Origin: Caldalkalibacillus uzonensis
GTDB taxonomy: Bacteria > Bacillota > Bacilli > Caldalkalibacillales > Caldalkalibacillaceae
Length of the DNA: 64,000 nt
Assembly (NCBI RefSeq): GCF_030814135.1
Contig: NZ_JAUSUQ010000001.1
Location: forward strand, 186,001 to 250,000
Reading direction: 5' to 3'
Position numbers and translations under genes: made by a program. The notes beneath the pieces were generated by a model. The model was not told the origin of the DNA and ran no database searches. It saw only the letters and a list, made by a program, of their open reading frames with translations. Below, piece after piece: positions 8,692 through 48,677 of the stretch; position 1 is the first letter of the stretch, and the number at the start of each line of letters is the position of its first letter.

Positions 8692-9477
8692 CTATTGCTG
8701 CTCAGGTTGGATCCCATACCATAATATTTTTGAAACGTCTGCTGACAGAGATTTGAACGAAATTTGATTTGGAGCAATTAACCACATCAAGACAATGCCA
8801 TTGATCAGAGCATGAAACGTAACGGATAATGCATGGGGATCAACTTGTGAATTGATAAGCTGTTTTCGCTTCAACTCTGCCAGAATGTCCGCAGTCTGTT
8901 CAAACAGTTTTGAAAAAGATGCACATAGTTTTTTCTTGACCGCTGGTTCCCGGCTGCTCGAAACAAACTCAAGGAAAAGCATCGGTCGTTCTCCATCGCC
9001 TTGCTCGCACATTTCAAATTGTGATGCCAGCAGCGTGCTTAAAGCGTCCTGCGGAGCCGATGAGGTAAAAATATCTTGGGACTGTGTAGGAAGTTCATGA
9101 AGGAGCTGCCTCAGACTGCGATCACAAAGGGCGAGATATAAATCACTTTTACTTGAAAAATGCCAGTATACGGCTCCTTTGGTCATTCCTGCTTCCTTGG
9201 CTACTTGATCCAGTGTGGCACGATTATACCCGTACCTTGCAAATACCCTGCCGGCAGCTTCTAAAATTTTGGTGCGTGTATCTGCAAGCCGAGGATTGTT
9301 CTCCGTTTGTTGTTGCTTTAATATTCTTCTCATTTCTTCTTTACTTCCGAAGTATCTTTGTACAGTCGTCCAATGCACTCCTGCTGCTCTGGCAATGTCC
9401 GCATAAGTAATTTTGTCGTATGGATAACGGTTGGCGAGATCTAAAGCCGCCTGTAATATTTGTTCAGAAGATTTCAC
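8692..9477 (-). CDS. TetR-family regulator with two tandem helix-turn-helix domains
   Basis: A 261-residue protein, longer than the usual 190-210. Two TetR N-terminal domains follow each other. The first spans residues 5-50 (ILQAALDLANRYPYDKITYA, AGVHWTTVQRYFGSKEEM). The second spans residues 69-115 (ILEAAGRVFARYGYNRATLD, GMTKGAVYWHFSSKSDL). A helical ligand domain follows. The GTG at 9477 has GGAGGATG upstream. Near-identical palindromes at 9517-9534 (before itself) and 8632-8649 (before the hydrolase) support autoregulation and control of the hydrolase. Both DNA-binding domains look intact. Confidence 0.88.
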   Translation of the reverse strand: MKSSEQILQAALDLANRYPYDKITYADIARAAGVHWTTVQRYFGSKEEMRRILKQQQTENNPRLADTRTKILEAAGRVFARYGYNRATLDQVAKEAGMTKGAVYWHFSSKSDLYLALCDRSLRQLLHELPTQSQDIFTSSAPQDALSTLLASQFEMCEQGDGERPMLFLEFVSSSREPAVKKKLCASFSKLFEQTADILAELKRKQLINSQVDPHALSVTFHALINGIVLMWLIAPNQISFKSLSADVSKILWYGIQPEQQ

Positions 9478-9721: not shown

Positions 9722-9917
9722 ATCGCCGAAGCAGCAAAGGGGAATAAGAATTGCGTGTGACAGTAACTTCTGAGACACGCATCGGCCGGGTCGGTCAGAT
9801 AGAACTCGAACCGGCCACTCCAAAATCACTTTTGCCTTCGTGGCGGCTGTTCCACTCACGTCCATGACAACTGAACTCTCTTTACACATGTAAAATGACT
9901 TTACTTATGTACTCTTC

Positions 9918-10525
9918 TTACTTGAAATGTTTCCTATACCATTCTGCTGCCGCTTGTACTTCAGTCTGAGTGAGCTGATAACCGTAATTTTCCCAATGAA
10001 CGTGTACTGTTCACCTTGTTTTTCTAACATAGATTGTAGCTCAAGTGATTCTTCTGGAGGGCAAATCGGATCATTTTTCCCTGCGCCAATAAATATTGGC
10101 ATACCAGTAAGATCTGGCAGCTCAATTCCTCTCCTAGGAACCATCGGGTGATGCAGAATCGCCCCTTTTAACGCCTTCTCATAATGGAACAATAAACTTC
10201 CTGCAATATTAGCCCCATTCGAATAACCGATGGCTATGAGATTATTGCGGTCAAACCCATATTCTTTGGCAGCTTGGTCAAGGAATTCATACAATTCTTT
10301 TGTCCGAAATATTAAATCCTCTTCATCAAACACCCCTTCTGCTAAACGCCGAAAGAATCTGGGCATTCCATTCTCTAGCACATTCCCGCGGACACTTAAT
10401 ACGGAAGCTTCAGAATCTATCATACATGCAAGTGGTAAAAGATCTCGCTCAGTTCCTCCCGTCCCATGTAACAATAAAAATGTTGGTTTGCTCTTCTCTT
10501 TTCCTTGTTGAAATATATGTTTCAT
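9918..10525 (-). pseudogene. MhqD/YodD-like carboxylesterase, frameshifted near its C-terminus
   Basis: The ATG at 10525 has GAGGAGG upstream. The frame gives an alpha/beta hydrolase: LLLHGTGGTERD (oxyanion loop), AIGYSNGANIAGSLL (nucleophile Ser) and GAGKNDPICPPEES (acid). After EKQGEQYT the frame goes wrong. One base over, the family C-terminus continues VHWENYGYQLTQTEVQ and AAAEWYRKHFK to a TAA at 9918, including the catalytic HW(E/D)..GHQL region. One missing base near 9998 explains this. The catalytic histidine region (Tyr instead of His in GYQL) would be lost or altered. It follows a TetR gene by 106 bases in the same direction. A sequencing error cannot be excluded. Confidence 0.75.
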
Positions 10526-10631
10526 TTTTTTTGCCTCCTCTGTTTTAGTCTAACCTAGACCCTATATGGTTTATGATAACATTTTGAATTGATATCATTG
10601 CTTTTAGTGAAATGGATGCTTTTTGCTTCAT

Positions 10632-11228
10632 TCATTTCCTCTGATGGTCATTATAAATGGCCTCTTTACGCAGACGGGCAGCATCCATAATATCAGTTGC
10701 TGTACTCTCTAAAATCTCTGTCACCTTTTCTTCAGTAAAATCCTCCGGAAGTAATCCATTGGCAACCATGACGGAAAGCCCCGTTTGAAAAATCCTCATT
10801 TTTAATAAAATGTCCATCAGTTCTTCGTCAGTAAAGCCTTCAAGATCTGAATCCTTTTTCATTTGTTCCACAAGGTCGTTACCCAGTTCTTGGTCATAAC
10901 GCTTCATATAATCGTTCTGTTTCATGACCAGGTCTCTAAATAGCACACTGTACTCCTTAGCAAATCGCAGGCTGGCGATCCCCATATCACGAAACGGACT
11001 TCCGGTATTCTGTTCCATCAATATTTGCCTGCTTTTATGAAATGTTTTTTTAATTACCTCCTGTATGAGTTCATCGACATCTTTAAAATTGACGTAAATT
11101 GGAGCAATGGAGCTCCCCATTTTCTCAGCCACTTTTCTGATCGTTATGGCATCAATACCTTCTACCTTGGCTATTTCAAAAGCCGTATCAATAATTTGTT
11201 CTCTGGAAAACCTTTTTTTAGGTGGCAA
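10632..11228 (-). CDS. TetR/AcrR-family transcriptional regulator
   Basis: A 198-residue protein with an N-terminal TetR helix-turn-helix: RFSREQIIDTAFEIAKVEGI, then ITIRKVAEKMGSSIAPIYVN. The rest is helical and variable. I place the start at the TTG at 11228, giving MPPKKRFSREQII, because AAAAGGGGAG lies seven bases upstream. The longer frame would read through AT-rich operator DNA. A 44-base perfect palindrome at 11260-11303 lies just upstream and probably binds this protein. The next gene downstream is the frameshifted MhqD-like esterase, its probable target. Confidence 0.85.
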   Translation of the reverse strand: MPPKKRFSREQIIDTAFEIAKVEGIDAITIRKVAEKMGSSIAPIYVNFKDVDELIQEVIKKTFHKSRQILMEQNTGSPFRDMGIASLRFAKEYSVLFRDLVMKQNDYMKRYDQELGNDLVEQMKKDSDLEGFTDEELMDILLKMRIFQTGLSVMVANGLLPEDFTEEKVTEILESTATDIMDAARLRKEAIYNDHQRK

Positions 11229-11259
11229 GTTGGGTCTCCCCTTTTGTATATCTATATCT

Positions 11260-11303
11260 TTTATTATATAACATATGATATATATCATATGTTATATAAT
11301 AAA
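11260..11303. promoter_or_regulatory. 44-base perfect palindrome upstream of the TetR gene
   Basis: The stretch reads the same on both strands for 44 bases, with the core ATATGATATATATCATAT near the centre. It lies 31 bases upstream of the TTG start at 11228, where promoter and operator would overlap. It may be a TetR operator, or AT-rich DNA that folds into a cruciform. Confidence 0.65.
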
Positions 11304-11684: not shown

Positions 11685-12461
11685 TTATTTGAATACTAGC
11701 CCGCCATCCACAATTAAGCATTGACCTGTCACAAACCGGGACCATTCACTAGCAAAAAAGAGTGCACTTCCTGCCACATCTTCAGGCCGGGCAATTCTGC
11801 GCAAAGGGGTTTGAGCAATAATCGCTTCTTTTACTTCTTCTTTCGTTTTTCGACTTGCATCTGTAGGGTATACAAGCCCCGGTGCAATACAATTGACAGT
11901 AATCCCAAACTGCCCAAGATCAGCAGCCAGATTTTGAGAGTAAGTAAGTAGGGCTCCTTTAGCTGTCGTGTAATCATGATAGGGTACAGTTGGCTTATAG
12001 ACAAGATCTGAAACCATATTAATAATGCGTCCAAAGCCTTTCGATTTCATAATCGGAATGACATGTTTGCATACATTGTACGTCCCTTTTAGAGAGCCAT
12101 CAATCTGATGCTGATAATCCTCCCAAGCAAGCTCCCAGGCCATCTTTCTTTGATCAGGATCAAAAGTATACTCATATAAGGCATTATTAACGACAACATC
12201 GATTGCATCGAATTCATCAACGATTTGCTGGATCATTTCTTCCATATCTTTCTCATCCGTCACATCTCCCTGACAAGCCATCACTTCTGTATGGTAGGTT
12301 TCCATAAAACGGCGGGCCAATTGCTCTGCTCTCTCTTTATTTTTCAGGAAATTAATGATCACAATAGAGCCCTGCTGGGCAAAGGCTTCAGCCATGGCCG
12401 CCCCAATTCCACGGCTGGATCCTGTAATCAGCACAACCTTTCCTTTTAAGGATAGATTCAT
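11685..12461 (-). CDS. Short-chain dehydrogenase/reductase, last gene of the TPP-riboswitch operon
   Basis: A 258-residue classical SDR. It has the cofactor motif TGSSRGIGAA, the NNAL stretch (VVVNNALYEY), serine in NMVSDLV, the catalytic YTTAK pair and the C-terminal VTGQCLIVDGG. Members reduce ketones or aldehydes with NAD(P)H. I chose the ATG at 12461 over the GTG at 12473. It lies 52 bases after the ABC binding-protein gene and appears to be the sixth gene of the operon starting at 17695. In that setting it could reduce the aldehyde made by the LuxC-like enzyme to an alcohol (inference). Confidence 0.88.
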   Translation of the reverse strand: MNLSLKGKVVLITGSSRGIGAAMAEAFAQQGSIVIINFLKNKERAEQLARRFMETYHTEVMACQGDVTDEKDMEEMIQQIVDEFDAIDVVVNNALYEYTFDPDQRKMAWELAWEDYQHQIDGSLKGTYNVCKHVIPIMKSKGFGRIINMVSDLVYKPTVPYHDYTTAKGALLTYSQNLAADLGQFGITVNCIAPGLVYPTDASRKTKEEVKEAIIAQTPLRRIARPEDVAGSALFFASEWSRFVTGQCLIVDGGLVFK

Positions 12462-12513
12462 GCCATCACCCACTTCTCATCCCATTTTTTTATTACCAAT
12501 TCTTGATCAGCTA

Positions 12514-13527
12514 TTATTTCAGTTCTTTCACTAATTCATTTGTGACGATTTCTGCTACATTTACAGGCTTTTCAAGTAAACCGATGTTTAGATAGGTCTC
12601 CTCCACTTGTTTAAAAATCTCGACATCTAACCAGCCCGGGCCTTTATCTTTCATTTCATCATTGATTGACGTCTCATTACGGATCTTGATTATGTCCAGG
12701 TTGCGCTGCTCATCTTGACCATCAATCGCGTAGTCTGCCGCTATTTTTGCTGCCTCCTCCGGATTCTCCAGCGTATATTTAACACTATCTTTGTACACCT
12801 GAAGGAAGCGGACTAACAAATCTCTTTTTTGATTAAATATCTCTTTCGTCACCACAAAAACGTCCGTTGGGGTGTTGAGCACATCTTTGACTTCGATGAC
12901 ATTCACTTCCCCCAAACCCTGCTGCAAAGCATCATACAGACCTGTATCCGTAGCTGCCGTAGCGACAACTTGCTTGTTCATGAGTGGTCCAAAGTTTAAT
13001 ACCCCTGCAGGAACAACATTGATATCCTCTTCGGTCATACCTGCTGAATAAAGCAGTACTTTTAAATTATCATAAGTTCCACTGCTAAGGCTGTATACAC
13101 CCACATCTTGACCACGCAAATCTTCCACACTGGTGATGTTGCTTTCTTTTAAAGATACGAGATTAAAGACATTCTCAGGATAGATGTTATATATGATCTT
13201 CAATTTTTCTCCCTGTTCCATAGCTTGAAGAACTGCCTCTACATTGGCAAAGGCGATATCCGCATTACCGGCTATGATATTTTTGATGGCATCACCACCG
13301 CCAGCCCCAGGTACATATTCGAAATCAAGTCCTGCTTCCTCAAACCAACCCTTCTCCTCTGCCACAAATAAATTGCTTTGCTCTACGATAGGCTGGCTCC
13401 ATGAAGCCATTTTCAATGATTCAAGTTCCTGTTCTTGATGGCTGGTTTGACTGCATCCCACTAACGTAGAAAGTAAACTAATCATGACCAGTAACATCAC
13501 TATATTTTTCAATAACATGTGTTTCAT
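12514..13527 (-). CDS. ABC transporter substrate-binding lipoprotein (NMT1/ThiY/SsuA type)
   Basis: A 337-residue exported lipoprotein. The signal peptide ends in the lipobox LVGC, followed by a NMT1/THI5-like periplasmic-binding fold: VEQSNLFVAEEKGWFEEAGL, GAGGGDAIKNIIAGNADIAF, and SVEDLRGQDVGVYSLSSG. Relatives bind thiamin pyrimidine precursors, sulfonates or taurine. The ATG at 13527 overlaps the permease stop (ATGA) and has AAGGAG nine bases upstream. The TPP riboswitch at the head of the operon points to a thiamin-related ligand, as for ThiY (formylaminopyrimidine). Confidence 0.88.
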   Translation of the reverse strand: MKHMLLKNIVMLLVMISLLSTLVGCSQTSHQEQELESLKMASWSQPIVEQSNLFVAEEKGWFEEAGLDFEYVPGAGGGDAIKNIIAGNADIAFANVEAVLQAMEQGEKLKIIYNIYPENVFNLVSLKESNITSVEDLRGQDVGVYSLSSGTYDNLKVLLYSAGMTEEDINVVPAGVLNFGPLMNKQVVATAATDTGLYDALQQGLGEVNVIEVKDVLNTPTDVFVVTKEIFNQKRDLLVRFLQVYKDSVKYTLENPEEAAKIAADYAIDGQDEQRNLDIIKIRNETSINDEMKDKGPGWLDVEIFKQVEETYLNIGLLEKPVNVAEIVTNELVKELK

Positions 13528-14285
13528 CGCCATTCTCTCCTTGAGTGATGATATTTTTTAAACAGCAGCTTTTCAGTCCAGTGGATTCCCTCATAGAGGA
13601 ATAACCCCATGAGCGTTAATAAAATGAAAGCGGAAAAGATTAACGTTGTATCGTATTGCGCTGAAATAATCAAGGCACCCAAGCCTTTGTTGGCCCCGAC
13701 AAACTCACTGACCACAGCGCCCACAACACTTAAAACAACAGCCACTCTCAGGCCTGAAAAAATATATGGGACAGCCGTAGGCAAGCGTAATTTTAAGAGC
13801 GTTTGCCTTTTGCTTGCCCGCAGAGAACGAAACAGTTCAAGCCTCTCTTGATCGACAAAGGTGAGCCCTGTGATGGTACTTTCCAATAATGGAAAGAAGC
13901 AAATAAGGGCCACAATGATGATCTTAGGTTCATAGCCAAAGCCAAACCAGGTGGCGAGCAGTGGAGCTAAGGCCAACTTAGGCATCGCCTGAGAGGCAAT
14001 AAGGTAAGGTTGGATGATATTGCGTACGGTATCTGATTGGGCAATTAGAAATCCTAAGCCGATGCCCATTATCGATCCAAGGATAAATCCCCCTATAATT
14101 TCAAGCAGTGTGGCCCAAATATGTGGCCAAAAATATCCATTTAATAGCTGAGTGATTAATTGGGCAAATATGGCCGATGGAGCAGGCAATATGAGCGGGC
14201 GTATTTGACAAGCATAAACAATCCATTCCCATATCCCAATAATGCCTACAAAAAGAAGAAGTGAGTAAAAAGAGGGTTTTTTCAT
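13524..14285 (-). CDS. ABC transporter permease (ThiX/SsuC type)
   Basis: A 253-residue membrane protein of the BPD transporter family. About six membrane helices are visible, starting FYSLLLFVGIIGIWEWIVYA. The cytoplasmic coupling loop is present (FRSLRASKRQTLLKLRLPTA, with a preceding E-R-L-E-L). It starts at 14285, overlapping the ATPase gene by four bases, and ends overlapping the binding-protein gene. It would form the channel of the importer with the ATPase at 14282-15034. Confidence 0.9.
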   Translation of the reverse strand: MKKPSFYSLLLFVGIIGIWEWIVYACQIRPLILPAPSAIFAQLITQLLNGYFWPHIWATLLEIIGGFILGSIMGIGLGFLIAQSDTVRNIIQPYLIASQAMPKLALAPLLATWFGFGYEPKIIIVALICFFPLLESTITGLTFVDQERLELFRSLRASKRQTLLKLRLPTAVPYIFSGLRVAVVLSVVGAVVSEFVGANKGLGALIISAQYDTTLIFSAFILLTLMGLFLYEGIHWTEKLLFKKYHHSRREWR

Positions 14286-15034
14286 CTTGCACTCCCTCTT
14301 TCAATTTCCTGGTACAATTCCCGAACAAGCTGGGTGAACTGTGGTTCAAACTTTAGTTCATGATGCCGGGGACGGTCAAACGGGATGGCGTATTCGGCCA
14401 CAATACGAGCCGGCCGCTCCCCTAAAACAAACACACGGTCAGATAACAATACAGCCTCTTGAATATCATGAGTGATAAATATGGTGGTTGGTTTAAATTG
14501 TTGAGACAGACGCTCAAGCTCGTGCTGCATCTGCTCTTTAGTCAGGGCATCTAAAGCAGCAAAGGGCTCATCCATAAGCAGTATCTTTGGTTCCGTGATT
14601 AATGCTCTTGCCAAGGCGACTCTGGACAACATGCCACCAGAGCATTCATGGGGATATTTATCCATATCTTGACTCAGACCAACTAAGTCTAGTATTTCTT
14701 TAGCCCGGGAAAGCTGTTCTTCTTGTACATGTCCCTGTAATTCATAAGGCAGCAAAACATTTTCAAGCAGAGTTCTCCATTCTAACAGCACGGGTTTTTG
14801 AAAAACATAGGTGACTTCGTCTCTGGGGCTGTCTACCTTCTCTCCACCAATTTCTATTTCACCCTCAGTTGGCCTCATCAGTCCCGCAATCATTTTTAGT
14901 AAGCTTGTTTTACCACTGCCACTTTTCCCTATCATGCTGACAAACTCTTGTGAATCAATCTTTGCATTCACATGTTTAAGAATTGGCTTTTCCTTTTGAA
15001 AGCATAAACTGACATCATTGATAACTACTTCCAT
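14282..15034 (-). CDS. ABC transporter ATP-binding protein (ThiZ/SsuB type)
   Basis: A 250-residue ATPase. Walker A is GKSGSGKTS, the Q-loop is YVFQKP, the signature is CSGGMLSRVALARAL, Walker B is ILLMDEPFAALDAL and the switch is THDIQEAV. The signature with SGGM is common in the nitrate/sulfonate/thiamin-precursor subfamily. The ATG at 15034 has GAGGAGC seven bases upstream. It is the third gene of the TPP-riboswitch operon and energises uptake through the permease at 13524-14285. Confidence 0.92.
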   Translation of the reverse strand: MEVVINDVSLCFQKEKPILKHVNAKIDSQEFVSMIGKSGSGKTSLLKMIAGLMRPTEGEIEIGGEKVDSPRDEVTYVFQKPVLLEWRTLLENVLLPYELQGHVQEEQLSRAKEILDLVGLSQDMDKYPHECSGGMLSRVALARALITEPKILLMDEPFAALDALTKEQMQHELERLSQQFKPTTIFITHDIQEAVLLSDRVFVLGERPARIVAEYAIPFDRPRHHELKFEPQFTQLVRELYQEIERGSAR

Positions 15035-15049
15035 CACTACCGCTCCTCA

Positions 15050-16531
15050 CTAATCCCTGTAAGGATCATACCGGTCGATCATGTTTTCTGCTGATCCCTC
15101 CACATCACACCACCTGACCAAATCAGCTAAATGAAGTCGCCCATCATGATGCCAACCCGGTTGGGGTTCCGTCATTTTACCTAAGGCACAAATCCTGTTA
15201 ACGCCGCTTTCACCGAGCATTCGAATGACAGACCTGAATTTAGATGGCCCACAGGCCACACCAACGGTTTGCACGAATGTGCGGATCCCCTTGATTTTAT
15301 GCGGGAGATCATCCAGATCGTCTAATGGTACAACCGTGACAACCCTGTTTAATACAGACAAAGGAAAGAAGGCTTCCGTATCATTTTCTTCATTGTAAAG
15401 AACGGTCCAGGAGGTGTCTCCCTTACTCACTAACAACTCAATTTTTTGTGAAGAATAGCTTTGGAATTCTGCTTTTGAGCGGAATGATAAAATCGCTTGG
15501 TTTTCCACTTCTGTTAACTGGGCACGGGGCATTTTGTATTGAAATCGATCCATTTCCTGAGCTAACATACGGGCAAAATCCCTGGGAGAAATTTTCCCGC
15601 CCTTTTCGACATAGAAGACATGGGGAGATAAACAGCCTTGTTGATCAAACCAGGAAACATCGTGAGCTGCCAAATGTGCTGTTTCCCATGCTGTCGTCCC
15701 TTCTAAGCACTCATTGGTAATAAGTCCAAAACTTACTTTATGTCCATGGGGCACAAACCTTACATCATGAGGAACTCTGGCCTTGACCGCTTGGATTGTA
15801 TGCATACTGCCATAGGCAATAACAGCCTCTGAACTTTTAAAAGCAATCTCCTCCAGTTCAGCTTGGCCGCCCTTCCACCACACGATGGCCAACGTTGCGG
15901 CCATTTTGGGTTCAATTTTTTCAAGTGTTTGGGCAAAAAGCACAGGAAATAAAGGCTCAGCTGAAGAGACCTTTCCCAGTGTCGCCGATTTTAGAATCAT
16001 TCCAGCAGCCATGCTCCACAAGGGAAGTGCGGGAACATTGCCAGAGAAAATGTGAGTGGTACACTGTGGCCCATAAGCTTTAAGCAATCCCCCTGCTTTT
16101 CTGGGCCTAAATTCATCCAGGATTAACGGGTTAGGGAAATCTTCCTCCACCATTCGTTGGAGTTTTTCCTTGCGAAATAAGCGTAAGTATTTTGTTAAAA
16201 ACAGTCTGATCATTTCTGAATTATAACCTGTGATGACCGGGAGATATTCCTCAGCCATTTGTCTAAGCTCAAATTGCGGGTTTAACCATGATTGTACAGC
16301 CTCATCAATGACCTCGATGATATCATTGACCCTCATCCGCTTTAACCCACGTTCACGATTAACTTTAATCTGCTCCATAATCAACTTCAGCTGTTCAGGT
16401 GTTAACTGAGGCACCTGAAGGGAAATGTCCTTCCCGTGATGAGAAAATACAAGGGTTTTTCTTGCTAACGATCGCTGCAGATCCTCTGGCAGATTACAAG
16501 GCAAATAAAAAGAGTCTATAGTCGGACTCAT
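15050..16531 (-). CDS. LuxC-type acyl-CoA/acyl-protein reductase
   Basis: A 493-residue protein of the LuxC family (aldehyde-dehydrogenase-like fold). The cofactor region is around IFSGNVPALPLWSMAAGMIL, and the nucleophile lies in FDQQGCLSPHVFYVE (Cys300, equivalent to the acylated cysteine of LuxC). The C-terminal GRLHLADLVRWCDVE block is also typical. The enzyme reduces an activated acyl group to an aldehyde with NADPH. The ATG at 16531 follows AAAGGGGAG, 39 bases after the LuxE-like stop. No luxA or luxB is nearby, so light emission is not its role. The riboswitch suggests a thiamin-derived acid as substrate (inference). Confidence 0.9.
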   Translation of the reverse strand: MSPTIDSFYLPCNLPEDLQRSLARKTLVFSHHGKDISLQVPQLTPEQLKLIMEQIKVNRERGLKRMRVNDIIEVIDEAVQSWLNPQFELRQMAEEYLPVITGYNSEMIRLFLTKYLRLFRKEKLQRMVEEDFPNPLILDEFRPRKAGGLLKAYGPQCTTHIFSGNVPALPLWSMAAGMILKSATLGKVSSAEPLFPVLFAQTLEKIEPKMAATLAIVWWKGGQAELEEIAFKSSEAVIAYGSMHTIQAVKARVPHDVRFVPHGHKVSFGLITNECLEGTTAWETAHLAAHDVSWFDQQGCLSPHVFYVEKGGKISPRDFARMLAQEMDRFQYKMPRAQLTEVENQAILSFRSKAEFQSYSSQKIELLVSKGDTSWTVLYNEENDTEAFFPLSVLNRVVTVVPLDDLDDLPHKIKGIRTFVQTVGVACGPSKFRSVIRMLGESGVNRICALGKMTEPQPGWHHDGRLHLADLVRWCDVEGSAENMIDRYDPYRD

Positions 16532-16570
16532 GCTTGTCTCCCCTTTGACTGCGACACCTATAAAAAATAA

Positions 16571-17695
16571 CTACATCTGTCTTGACGCAAGGAACTCCTC
16601 TACGGCCAAAGAACATCCCTTTGCTTCAGCTCCTGTTGCCCTGCCCAACAGTTCAAAGCCGTTCAGTGTAGATCTGCCCATATCTTCTGTCATGATGGCT
16701 AGAACCGAGTTGAGATTGGCCAGATCATAATGGACAATAATGCCTTGTTCACCGCAAGGTTTAGGTTTATAAGTAACTGGATCGATCACCAAGGTTCTAA
16801 CCCAGTGAGGTGGTACCTTTACATTGTTCACACTTTCGGTCTGATTGGCGGTATGATCTGCGTTAACTGCATGATACAGGTTTTGGTCATAAAACTGGGA
16901 GCTTAATTCTGTCATGCCATACATGTTAACACAATACGCTTCAGGTATGGAGAATAAGATGCTCATCTCTTGCTTAAACTGGTGCGGCAAAATCTCTCTG
17001 GACCGTCCTTTGGCTCCCCCGGTATCCATCACCCTGCTTCCTTGAGGCAGCTTAAAGGTTAATCCCTCTTGTTTACAATGATCTAAAAAATGAATAAATG
17101 AAAAGGTCGCTCCTATCACAAGGACAGGCTCATCCTTTTGCTCACTCGCTCTTAACATATCGATAAGCAAGTCCAAATCAAAATGGTTACTCTGAACCAC
17201 ATAGCGGCTATCCTCAGTTCCGAACATATCTAGCGCCAGCCTTAAATAATGAGCTAAAGAAGAATTGGGCATATCTTCTTCAGGAGGGAATAAAATGGCC
17301 ATTTTGATTTGTTCCCTATCCGGCAAGATATTTGGTTTAAAGTAACGTTGCATCGACAAATCATAAATGTCTAAATCCCGATGATAATGTTTCCCCTTTT
17401 TTGCTGGGTTCGTCGTCCCACTGGTCATAAAAATTGCTTCCGCTTCTTCTATCGGACAAGCTGACAAAATGGCTTCTTTAAAAGCGTTAATCGGTACAGC
17501 TGGTATCTCGGTAAAGTGTTTGACGGAAACAGGGGATACCCTGCGTTTGCGGCAAAATTTCCGAAAAGCCTGATTATGCTCATATTGAAAAGCAAACAAA
17601 GACAAAGCCAACTGATTGAATTCTTCTTCTGAAGCTTGATCCTGTAATATAAAATCCCTCACCTTTTCTTTTATTGATGAATAGGCTTCATTCAT
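16571..17695 (-). CDS. LuxE-type acyl-protein synthetase
   Basis: A 374-residue ATP-dependent acyl-activating enzyme. The adenylate-forming motif is MTSGTTNPAKKGKHYHRD (residues 90-107), followed by YGMTELSSQFYD. Near the C-terminus KGCSLAVEEFL carries Cys361, at the place where LuxE accepts the acyl group. LuxE makes acyl-AMP from a carboxylic acid, moves the acyl group to its own cysteine, then hands it to LuxC. The ATG at 17695 has AGAAGG seven bases upstream. It is the first gene after the TPP riboswitch and its terminator, so it is the first one switched off by thiamin pyrophosphate. Confidence 0.9.
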   Translation of the reverse strand: MNEAYSSIKEKVRDFILQDQASEEEFNQLALSLFAFQYEHNQAFRKFCRKRRVSPVSVKHFTEIPAVPINAFKEAILSACPIEEAEAIFMTSGTTNPAKKGKHYHRDLDIYDLSMQRYFKPNILPDREQIKMAILFPPEEDMPNSSLAHYLRLALDMFGTEDSRYVVQSNHFDLDLLIDMLRASEQKDEPVLVIGATFSFIHFLDHCKQEGLTFKLPQGSRVMDTGGAKGRSREILPHQFKQEMSILFSIPEAYCVNMYGMTELSSQFYDQNLYHAVNADHTANQTESVNNVKVPPHWVRTLVIDPVTYKPKPCGEQGIIVHYDLANLNSVLAIMTEDMGRSTLNGFELLGRATGAEAKGCSLAVEEFLASRQM

Positions 17696-17728
17696 ACACA
17701 CACCTTCTTTCTCTCATATAAAGCAATT

Positions 17729-17758
17729 AAAAAACCACTTCTTAATCGAGAAGTGGTT
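17729..17758 (-). terminator. Riboswitch-controlled terminator
   Basis: On the minus strand AACCACTTCTCG, ATTA and AGAAGTGGTT fold into a hairpin followed by TTTTTT. The 5' arm AACCACTT can alternatively pair with AAGTGGTT, the 3' strand of riboswitch helix P1. The terminator and antiterminator are therefore mutually exclusive. Confidence 0.9.
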
Positions 17759-17798
17759 AATCGTAAAATACATGGCTTGTATACATATATCTTACATC

Positions 17799-17893
17799 AA
17801 CCACTTCCCTACGCTGCTATGATGCAGTTCAGGTTCAAAGGGTTCTAAGGCTAAACACCTTAATCTCAGCCTGATTCGGCTCCCCTAGTGGTT
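17799..17893 (-). promoter_or_regulatory. TPP (THI-box) riboswitch
   Basis: Reading the minus strand from 17893, the conserved blocks appear in order: ACTAGGGGAGCC, GGCTGAGA, ACCCTTTGAACCTGA, and GCAGCGTAGGGAA. These are the thi-box elements that bind thiamin pyrophosphate. Helix P1 is AACCACT (17893-17887) with AGTGGTT (17805-17799). Bound TPP holds P1 closed and frees the downstream terminator, stopping expression of the LuxE/LuxC/ABC/SDR genes. Conserved-block order and pairing leave little doubt. Confidence 0.95.
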
Positions 17894-17916
17894 ATATCTA
17901 ATATTTAGTTTACTTA

Positions 17917-47425: not shown

Positions 47426-47510
47426 TGGTGGAGGGGGACGGATTCGAACCGCCGAACCCAGAGGGAGCAGATTTACAGTCTGCCGCGTTTAGCCACTTCG
47501 CTACCCCTCC
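47426..47510 (-). tRNA. tRNA-Tyr (anticodon GTA)
   Basis: The 85-base gene has a long variable arm and the anticodon arm GCAGACTGTAAATCTGC. The acceptor GGAGGGG pairs with CCCCTCC, and the CCA tail is encoded. It is the last gene of the cluster. Confidence 0.96.
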
Positions 47511-47514
47511 ACAA

Positions 47515-47591
47515 TGGTGACCCGTAGGGGATTCGAACCCCTGAATGCCGGCGTGAAAGGCCGGTGTGTTAAGCCACTTCACCAACGGGCC
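47515..47591 (-). tRNA. tRNA-Glu (anticodon TTC)
   Basis: The anticodon arm is CCGGCCTTTCACGCCGG. The acceptor GGCCCGT pairs with ACGGGTC, with an encoded CCA. The body is almost identical to the copy at 48718-48794, which lacks a matching acceptor strand. Confidence 0.96.
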
Positions 47592-47620
47592 ACGATGGTT
47601 AAATCAGGATATAAATGCTT

Positions 47621-47713
<93 letters not shown>

Positions 47714-47744
47714 GCGTTTTCATCATGATAATCAATGGGTAAAA

Positions 47745-47821
47745 TGGTGGCGGCGGCGGGGATCGAACCCACGACCTTACGGGTATGAACCGTACGCTCT
47801 AGCCAGCTGAGCTACACCGCC
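47745..47821 (-). tRNA. tRNA-Met (anticodon CAT, elongator)
   Basis: GGCGGTGTAGCTCAGCTGG with anticodon arm TACGGTTCATACCCGTA. The paired first base (G1-C72) marks it as elongator rather than initiator. CCA is encoded. Confidence 0.95.
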
Positions 47822-47865
47822 AAATTAAAATTTAAAAAATAACCATAGAATAGAAAAGAAAAAAA

Positions 47866-47942
47866 TGGTCGGGAAGACAGGATTTGAACCTGCGACTTCC
47901 ACGTCCCGAACGTGGCGCTCTACCAAGCTGAGCTACTTCCCG
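47866..47942 (-). tRNA. tRNA-Pro (anticodon CGG)
   Basis: The anticodon arm CCACGTTCGGGACGTGG gives CGG. The acceptor CGGGAAG pairs with CTTCCCG, and CCA is encoded. The usual Bacillus Pro gene in such clusters carries TGG. Confidence 0.94.
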
Positions 47943-47947
47943 AAAGA

Positions 47948-48024
47948 TGGTGCGCCCTGAGAGACTCGAACTCCCAACCTTTTGATTCGTAGTCAAACGC
48001 TCTATCCAGTTGAGCTAAGGGCGC
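47948..48024 (-). tRNA. tRNA-Arg (anticodon ACG)
   Basis: The anticodon arm TTTGACTACGAATCAAA gives ACG, with A34 expected to become inosine. The acceptor GCGCCCT pairs with AGGGCGC, and CCA is encoded. Confidence 0.96.
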
Positions 48025-48045
48025 TTGTTATATTTTTGTGATAAA

Positions 48046-48120
48046 TGGAGCGGAAAACGGGATTCGAACCCGCGACCCCCACCTTGGCAAGGTGGTGCTC
48101 TACCCCTGAGCTATTTCCGC
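48046..48120 (-). tRNA. tRNA-Gly (anticodon GCC)
   Basis: The anticodon arm CCACCTTGCCAAGGTGG gives GCC. The acceptor GCGGAAA pairs with TTTCCGC, and CCA is encoded. Confidence 0.96.
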
Positions 48121-48148
48121 TCATCATGTTTATGATAAACAGTGTAAA

Positions 48149-48236
48149 TGGTGCGGGTGAAGGGATTTGAACCCCCACGCCCGTAATGGGCACTAGACCC
48201 TGAACCTAGCGCGTCTGCCAGTTCCGCCACACCCGC
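48149..48236 (-). tRNA. tRNA-Leu (anticodon CAG)
   Basis: A class II tRNA of 88 bases. The anticodon arm CTAGGTTCAGGGTCTAG gives CAG. The acceptor GCGGGTG pairs with CACCCGC, and CCA is encoded. Confidence 0.95.
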
Positions 48237-48249
48237 ACATTGTAAATAA

Positions 48250-48325
48250 TGGTGAGCCGTGAAGGATTCGAACCTTCGACCCTCTGATTAAAAGTCAGAT
48301 GCTCTACCAGCTGAGCTAACGGCTC
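48250..48325 (-). tRNA. tRNA-Lys (anticodon TTT)
   Basis: The anticodon arm TCTGACTTTTAATCAGA gives TTT. The acceptor GAGCCGT pairs with ACGGCTC, and CCA is encoded. It is the first gene of the second tRNA unit, 17 bases downstream of a -10 box. Confidence 0.96.
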
Positions 48326-48341
48326 ATTAAGGACAAGTGTT

Positions 48342-48370
48342 AGTATACAACGTTTATTCTGTTTTTGCAA
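48342..48370 (-). promoter_or_regulatory. tRNA promoter upstream of tRNA-Lys
   Basis: TTGCAA (48370-48365), 17 bases, TATACT (48347-48342) on the minus strand. It drives Lys through Tyr. Confidence 0.8.
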
Positions 48371-48435
48371 CACCTTTTTTACACCCTCAAAATTGGATAA
48401 CAAAACAAACTCAACAGGTAATTATCGACTAAAAA

Positions 48436-48512
<77 letters not shown>

Positions 48513-48524
48513 CATGGAAGGAAA

Positions 48525-48598
48525 TGGAGCGGGTAATGGGAATCGAACCCACGCTACCAGCTTGGAAGGCTGGAGTTCTACCACTGAACTACACCCGC
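48525..48598 (-). tRNA. tRNA-Gly (anticodon TCC)
   Basis: The anticodon arm CCAGCCTTCCAAGCTGG gives TCC. The acceptor GCGGGTG pairs with TACCCGC using one wobble pair. CCA is encoded. Confidence 0.96.
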
Positions 48599-48602
48599 TC
48601 GT

Positions 48603-48677
48603 TGGCTGGGCTGGCTGGATTCGAACCAGCGCATCACGGGGCCAAAACCCGTTGCCTTACCACTTGGCTACAGCCCA
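48603..48677 (-). tRNA. tRNA-Gln (anticodon TTG)
   Basis: The anticodon arm ACGGGTTTTGGCCCCGT gives TTG. The acceptor TGGGCTG pairs with CAGCCCA, including the weak U1-A72 pair typical of Gln. CCA is encoded. Confidence 0.96.

Follow-up and report, generated by a model that had tools for sequence, protein, structure and literature searches.

A thiamin pyrophosphate riboswitch heads an operon of LuxE- and LuxC-like enzymes in Caldalkalibacillus uzonensis: a probable thiamin-pyrimidine salvage module

Why would relatives of the enzymes that reduce fatty acids in luminous bacteria be placed under the control of thiamin? The question is raised by an operon of Caldalkalibacillus uzonensis, in a window of 64,000 nucleotides (the whole stretch of DNA analyzed, positions 186,001 to 250,000 of contig NZ_JAUSUQ010000001.1, assembly GCF_030814135.1), in which a thiamin pyrophosphate (TPP) riboswitch precedes genes for a LuxE-like ligase, a LuxC-like reductase, an ATP-binding cassette (ABC) importer, and a short-chain dehydrogenase/reductase (SDR). 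Comparison of gene content across genomes ties this operon to supply of the pyrimidine rather than the thiazole half of thiamin. The operon probably serves thiamin-pyrimidine salvage, in which a pyrimidine acid, probably 4-amino-2-methylpyrimidine-5-carboxylate, would be imported and reduced to 4-amino-5-hydroxymethyl-2-methylpyrimidine (HMP).

Six minus-strand genes lie 3' of the riboswitch, coding in order for the LuxE-like protein, the LuxC-like protein, an ABC ATPase, a permease, an NMT1/THI5-like lipoprotein, and the SDR; family profiles bore out the initial annotation, which had described this set, with a ThiZ/ThiX/ThiY-like importer, as uninterrupted (Table 1). The first protein scores above the PF04443 gathering threshold and has the C-terminal acyl-carrying cysteine of that superfamily, and its family profile finds the LuxE of 7xc6, a structure of LuxC with LuxE (8.8e-30). 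The second scores above the PF05893 threshold and has the catalytic cysteine, with a family profile that matches LuxC of 7xc6 (3.3e-42). The two cysteines singled out initially, Cys361 of LuxE and Cys300 of LuxC, were correctly identified: counting from the GTG start makes the former C363, and counting from the ATG two codons later makes it 361. Conservation of each is 98% or higher (86 LuxE and 83 LuxC orthologues). Scores against the equivalog models of the luminescence proteins, NF052244 and NF052251, were only 66.7 of 550 and 108.3 of 750 bits, respectively. The SDR, with Y168 and K172 conserved in 79 orthologues, passes NCBIfam NF006393 (PRK08642, "3-oxoacyl-ACP reductase") at 302 bits (cutoff, 292). 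The ATPase and permease genes share a 4-nucleotide overlap (ATGA), and the permease gene also overlaps that of the substrate-binding protein (SBP).

The riboswitch is the complete THI box initially placed at the head of the operon, with a score above the RF00059 gathering threshold, the conserved core, and an expression platform. RNA folding predicts a terminator and a competing antiterminator between the aptamer and luxE. The 5' terminator arm, AACCACTTC, is perfectly complementary to GAAGTGGTT, the 3' aptamer strand that closes P1, which argues that TPP binding should end transcription and that the leader should act as an ordinary OFF switch.

Table 1. Features of the operon and its leader, in window coordinates
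Feature	Position	Strand	Evidence
TPP riboswitch aptamer (THI element)	17789..17896	-	Rfam RF00059, full length, 77.6 bits vs gathering 54.3
Antiterminator hairpin: 3' P1 strand of aptamer pairs with terminator 5' arm	17748..17809	-	RNA fold -31.7 kcal/mol, z -8.5
Intrinsic terminator, AACCACTTCT-CGATTA-AGAAGTGGTT + T run	17733..17758	-	Predicted 10-bp stem, -13.7 kcal/mol, z -5.1
LuxE-like carboxylate-activating ligase / acyl-protein synthetase, 376 aa	16571..17701	-	PF04443 1.1e-21, 77.6 bits vs gathering 24.9
LuxC-like acyl-thioester reductase, 493 aa	15050..16531	-	PF05893 2.2e-99, 333.5 bits vs gathering 21
ABC importer ATPase, ThiZ-like	14282..15037	-	PF00005 1.9e-32
ABC importer permease (BPD), ThiX-like	13524..14285	-	PF00528 1.9e-28
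Lipoprotein SBP, NMT1/THI5-like, ThiY-like	12514..13533	-	PF09084 1.2e-43
SDR, 262 aa, PRK08642-like, proposed aldehyde-to-alcohol step	11685..12473	-	adh_short_C2 PF13561 7.4e-57

A scan of 84,980 species' genomes with the LuxE alignment alone gave 376 relatives; locus counts below refer to the best 80 of the 376, and those of gene order and content to the 74 of these 80 that are not cut by a contig end. Bacillota (Halalkalibacter, Domibacillus, Geobacillus, Robertmurraya, and Desulfosporosinus) and Betaproteobacteria (Comamonas, Achromobacter, Bordetella, Ramlibacter, Curvibacter, and Variovorax) are represented among them, as is Pantoea. With a model that we derived from 13 TPP sequences, a TPP-riboswitch match lies upstream of luxE on the same strand in 80/80 loci and nowhere else in them, the weakest being those of L104 (E, 0.01) and L052 (E, 0.001). 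Of eight proteobacterial loci searched with RF00059, four passed the gathering score, L062, L112, and L052 reached 48.8 to 50.2 bits, and L104 reached 33.6; the Rfam gathering score alone misses some proteobacterial TPP riboswitches. LuxE, LuxC, and SDR genes were present in all 74 uncut loci. Since the same arrangement recurs in loci gathered without use of the riboswitch, it is far beyond chance. Outside the source genome, a search of 399 Bacilli genomes turned up nine strong LuxC relatives, every one with an adjoining LuxE gene; a search within the source organism's own order gave the source genome only (1/5). Pairs of luxE and luxC without any thiamin link in related genomes, named initially as the observation that would speak against a thiamin role, were not found among close relatives. 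No TPP riboswitch was found at the remote LuxE/LuxC loci L029, L030, and L120, the last of which lies on a Priestia plasmid and includes a fatty acyl-AMP ligase.

The initial annotation had asked whether thiY-like genes always accompany luxE-luxC: the ABC importer is present in 66 of the 74 uncut loci, arranged as LuxE-LuxC-ThiZ-ThiX-ThiY-SDR, and is missing from eight. An NCS2 permease (xanthine/uracil type) precedes luxE in three of these eight and also in L023 and L026, and the operon thus includes an importer or permease in at least 69/74 loci (66 ABC and 3 NCS2). Minimal LuxE-LuxC-SDR forms without a linked transporter occur in L046 and in Pantoea (L081, L097, and L101). The SBP model (AlphaFold2; predicted local distance difference test [pLDDT] score, 91) matched best to 3ix1, the ThiY of B. 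halodurans that binds N-formyl-4-amino-5-aminomethyl-2-methylpyrimidine (FAMP) (Z, 31.9), 4nmy, a thiamin-bound C. difficile protein (Z, 30.3), and Thi5, an HMP synthase (Z, 27.7); SsuA, which binds sulfonates, followed closely (27.6). With an NMT1/THI5-like SBP whose nearest structures are among thiamin-pyrimidine binders, the importer is ThiXYZ-like, and the matches of the model are compatible with a thiamin-pyrimidine ligand, although they are not proof of one.

The module is also found on plasmids. The six-gene form is carried by plasmids of Azospirillum lipoferum and Priestia megaterium, and a complete TPP riboswitch with NCS2 permease-LuxE-LuxC-SDR lies on a 10-kb plasmid of Lactiplantibacillus plantarum (NZ_CP035118.1; L118) and a 21-kb plasmid of Levilactobacillus brevis (NZ_CP050546.1; L119). 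These two small plasmids, each with what would be a vitamin salvage module, are from Korean samples (food; makgeolli). In Niallia, tandem TPP riboswitches precede thiW-(NCS2)-luxE-luxC-SDR (positions 8710-8818 and 8973-9082 of L049; 4928-5032 and 5246-5355 of L070). Judged from sequence only, a nucleosidase-like reading frame follows the SDR gene in L023 (9361-10008), L054, and L072, which are loci of a Bacilli genome and of Bordetella.

Which half of thiamin the module serves was assessed in 53 carrier genomes, two of which (G085 and G407) are of one organism. ThiD and ThiG were present in 53/53 and ThiC in 42/53. ThiM was found in only about 32 and was missing from 21, 18 of which were Betaproteobacteria, nearly all of that class being without it. 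A full-length thiamin pyrophosphokinase (TPK; PF04263) was found in about 22 carriers; about 31, including all Betaproteobacteria, Pantoea, and the source genome, had none by PF04263 (ThiK was not searched), and 20 were without both ThiM and TPK. Because ThiM or TPK is missing in many carriers, hydroxyethylthiazole or thiamin would be a dead end there as a product, and because ThiD is found in all of them, its substrate HMP would be usable throughout. The eleven carriers that lack ThiC (members of Ramlibacter, Limnohabitans, Niallia, Aquibacillus, and Pullulanibacillus, plus a further Bacilli genome) all keep ThiG. Operon neighbors were in line with this: in Ramlibacter and several other Burkholderiales, the operon begins with thiD, placed between the riboswitch and luxE (316 bits; cutoff, 205), the order in ThiC-less Limnohabitans is TPP-luxE-luxC-thiZXY-SDR-thiO-thiS-thiG-thiE, and in L020 and Robertmurraya the module sits inside thiamin operons. 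In the same riboswitch-luxE interval of a Variovorax locus (L111, 9608-9967), a reading frame keeps only the first (FRYPRVLSIA) and last (GPLNHGHAPEAMRLQPLN) residues of ThiD, which seems to be what an internal deletion has left of a former operon thiD.

The association was assessed further in 60 Ramlibacter genomes, drafts and metagenome-assembled genomes, of which 33 had the module and 14 had ThiC or a ThiC fragment. Among the 46 ThiC-less genomes, ThiG was kept in 25/27 carriers versus 3/19 noncarriers (Fisher P = 1.2e-7, phylogeny uncorrected). TenA was absent from every module-carrying Ramlibacter. With ThiC gone, ThiG kept, and TenA absent, the module is the only recognized candidate for the pyrimidine supply of the ThiC-less carriers. 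Mutual exclusion of module and ThiC in this genus, which we had initially expected, was not seen (P = 0.36), and the signal lies in ThiG retention among ThiC-less genomes.

The initial annotation had proposed that an oxidized thiamin-related acid is taken up and reduced to the alcohol for reuse; this fits all the comparative evidence, and the acid and the reactions can be suggested as follows. When TPP is low, the riboswitch would let transcription through, and the ThiXYZ-like importer, or a nucleobase permease in some relatives, would take up the oxidized pyrimidine half of thiamin, most likely as 4-amino-2-methylpyrimidine-5-carboxylate, the acid that corresponds to HMP. A passage of PMC7780320 that cites Neal and Pearson (1964) gives this compound as a thiamin metabolite in rat urine. 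The LuxE-like enzyme would activate the carboxylate with ATP (adenylation), carry it as a thioester, and hand it to the LuxC-like enzyme, which would reduce the thioester to the aldehyde with NADPH; the SDR would convert the aldehyde to HMP, to be phosphorylated by ThiD and joined to the thiazole by ThiE. We infer this sequence from the families of the three enzymes, and the identity of the acid, the order and direction of the reactions, and the cofactors are to be taken at that strength. Where ThiC is gone, the module would supply the pyrimidine half.

Several observations weigh against this proposal. ThiC is still present in 42/53 carriers, the source genome included, and the module would therefore be an extra there. 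In Ramlibacter, module and ThiC were not anticorrelated (ThiC in 6/33 carriers versus 8/27 noncarriers), and the Fisher test ignores phylogeny. We found no report of the pyrimidine acid from the habitats of these bacteria, rat urine being neither soil nor water, and a coastal survey names HMP, 4-amino-5-aminomethyl-2-methylpyrimidine (AmMP), and FAMP as its only pyrimidine vitamers (PMC10881298). The SDR could run in the oxidizing direction. Finally, thiM directly follows the SDR gene in L021 and lies upstream of the module in Robertmurraya (L067 and L075), and ThiW is encoded in the Niallia operons; these minority cases could point to the thiazole.

The thiM neighbors, together with thiG, thiO, or thiF next to the module in L020, L067, and L107, are what would be expected if 4-methylthiazole-5-acetate were reduced to hydroxyethylthiazole and phosphorylated by ThiM. 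Such thiazole salvage is nevertheless improbable: ThiM is missing from the 21 carriers mentioned above, the thiazole is already made via ThiG in every carrier, the gene built into the Burkholderiales operons is thiD and not thiM, and the reverse of ThiG retention with ThiC loss would be predicted. Thiazole acetate and thiamin acetate, both offered as substrates in the initial annotation and early alternatives here (thiM of L021 having looked persuasive), were thus disfavored by the genome-wide searches for ThiM, TPK, ThiG, and ThiC, and the third compound offered, a pyrimidine carboxylate, agrees with universal ThiD, thiD inside the operon, frequent loss of thiC, and retention of ThiG.

We consider it similarly improbable that the three enzymes bypass ThiC de novo, making HMP from a pyrimidine acid that is produced inside the cell and not salvaged. 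Genomes without ThiC and TenA that keep ThiG need some pyrimidine source, and transporter-free forms of the module do exist, but an importer or permease belongs to the operon in nearly all the uncut loci, and among the neighbors of the module, none that would make a pyrimidine acid was seen repeatedly. Reduction of fatty acids or branched-chain acids that build up upon failure of TPP enzymes would suit the known role of LuxE/LuxC as fatty acid reductase subunits and the RefSeq labels of the module genes ("long-chain fatty acid--CoA ligase" and "acyl-CoA reductase"). It is very unlikely, since it leaves the ThiY-like importer, the nucleobase permease, the operon thiD, and ThiG retention with ThiC loss unexplained and since the proteins score far under the cutoffs for true LuxE and LuxC. 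Least likely is repair of whole thiamin from imported thiamin acetic acid, for which thiamin-bound 4nmy is a close structural relative of the SBP, but for which about 31 carriers are without the full-length TPK sought by PF04263 (ThiK not searched) and which leaves the ThiC-less, ThiG-plus pattern and the NCS2 permeases unexplained.

In the known salvage of FAMP and AmMP, a ThiXYZ importer, the deformylase YlmB, and the hydrolase TenA, the known gateway, lead to HMP. The module shares with it TPP-riboswitch control, a ThiXYZ-type importer with an NMT1/THI5-like SBP, and a proposed product, HMP, that feeds ThiD, but neither TenA nor YlmB is encoded in the operon, and the proposed chemistry is ATP- and NADPH-driven carboxylate reduction instead of deformylation and deamination. 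With the LuxC-LuxE fatty acid reductase of luminous bacteria (7xc6), it shares a homologous pair with conserved acyl-carrying cysteines; unlike that system, to which it is distantly related, it has no LuxD or luciferase gene, is thiamin controlled, and has an added SDR. As in the TPP-riboswitch regulons of a large comparative genomics survey (PMC3766115), the riboswitch controls genes that make or take up precursors of thiamin; the main text of that survey mentions neither LuxE nor acyl-CoA reductase. No description of LuxE/LuxC-type enzymes with thiamin or riboswitches was found in an incomplete search (a mention in the classic 2002 thiamin comparative genomics paper is possible), which agrees with the initial statement that no described pathway of this kind was known. 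The operon may thus extend TPP-controlled precursor salvage by a new branch, one whose chemistry is also new.

Four further TPP riboswitches in the source genome lie near thiT, thiC, a thiE...thiG operon, and a tenA-like reading frame, from which this organism can, as judged by its gene content, make thiamin de novo. The tenA-like frame (L005, 1824-2276) matches TenA over residues 10-95 only and may be truncated or frameshifted. No ordinary TPK was found in this genome (G000) by PF04263, whose one match was partial (31 bits, in a frame of 388 residues), and thiT is under a TPP riboswitch all the same. Just after the operon (window 9905-11288, minus strand) are genes for an MhqD-like esterase, matching over residues 1-174 of 206 only, and a TetR-type regulator, and 12 tRNA genes are clustered at 47429-48677 (minus strand).

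Genome surveys score bacteria that have lost thiC as HMP auxotrophs, and the pyrimidine vitamers that they regard as usable are HMP, AmMP, and FAMP (PMC10881298 and PMC12442306). We see an even chance that a thiamin-derived pyrimidine carboxylic acid is an unrecognized environmental B1 vitamer and that this operon, which is widespread and in part carried on plasmids, converts it to HMP by reduction and takes the place of ThiC in presumed pyrimidine auxotrophs. If the operon works as proposed, part of the bacteria scored as HMP auxotrophs would live on a vitamer that nobody measures, the LuxE/LuxC pair would gain a role in cofactor metabolism, and a "fatty acid" annotation would be corrected in many genomes. 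The module is carried by many soil and water bacteria, and the B1 cycle would then have an extra loop that rescues oxidized breakdown products.

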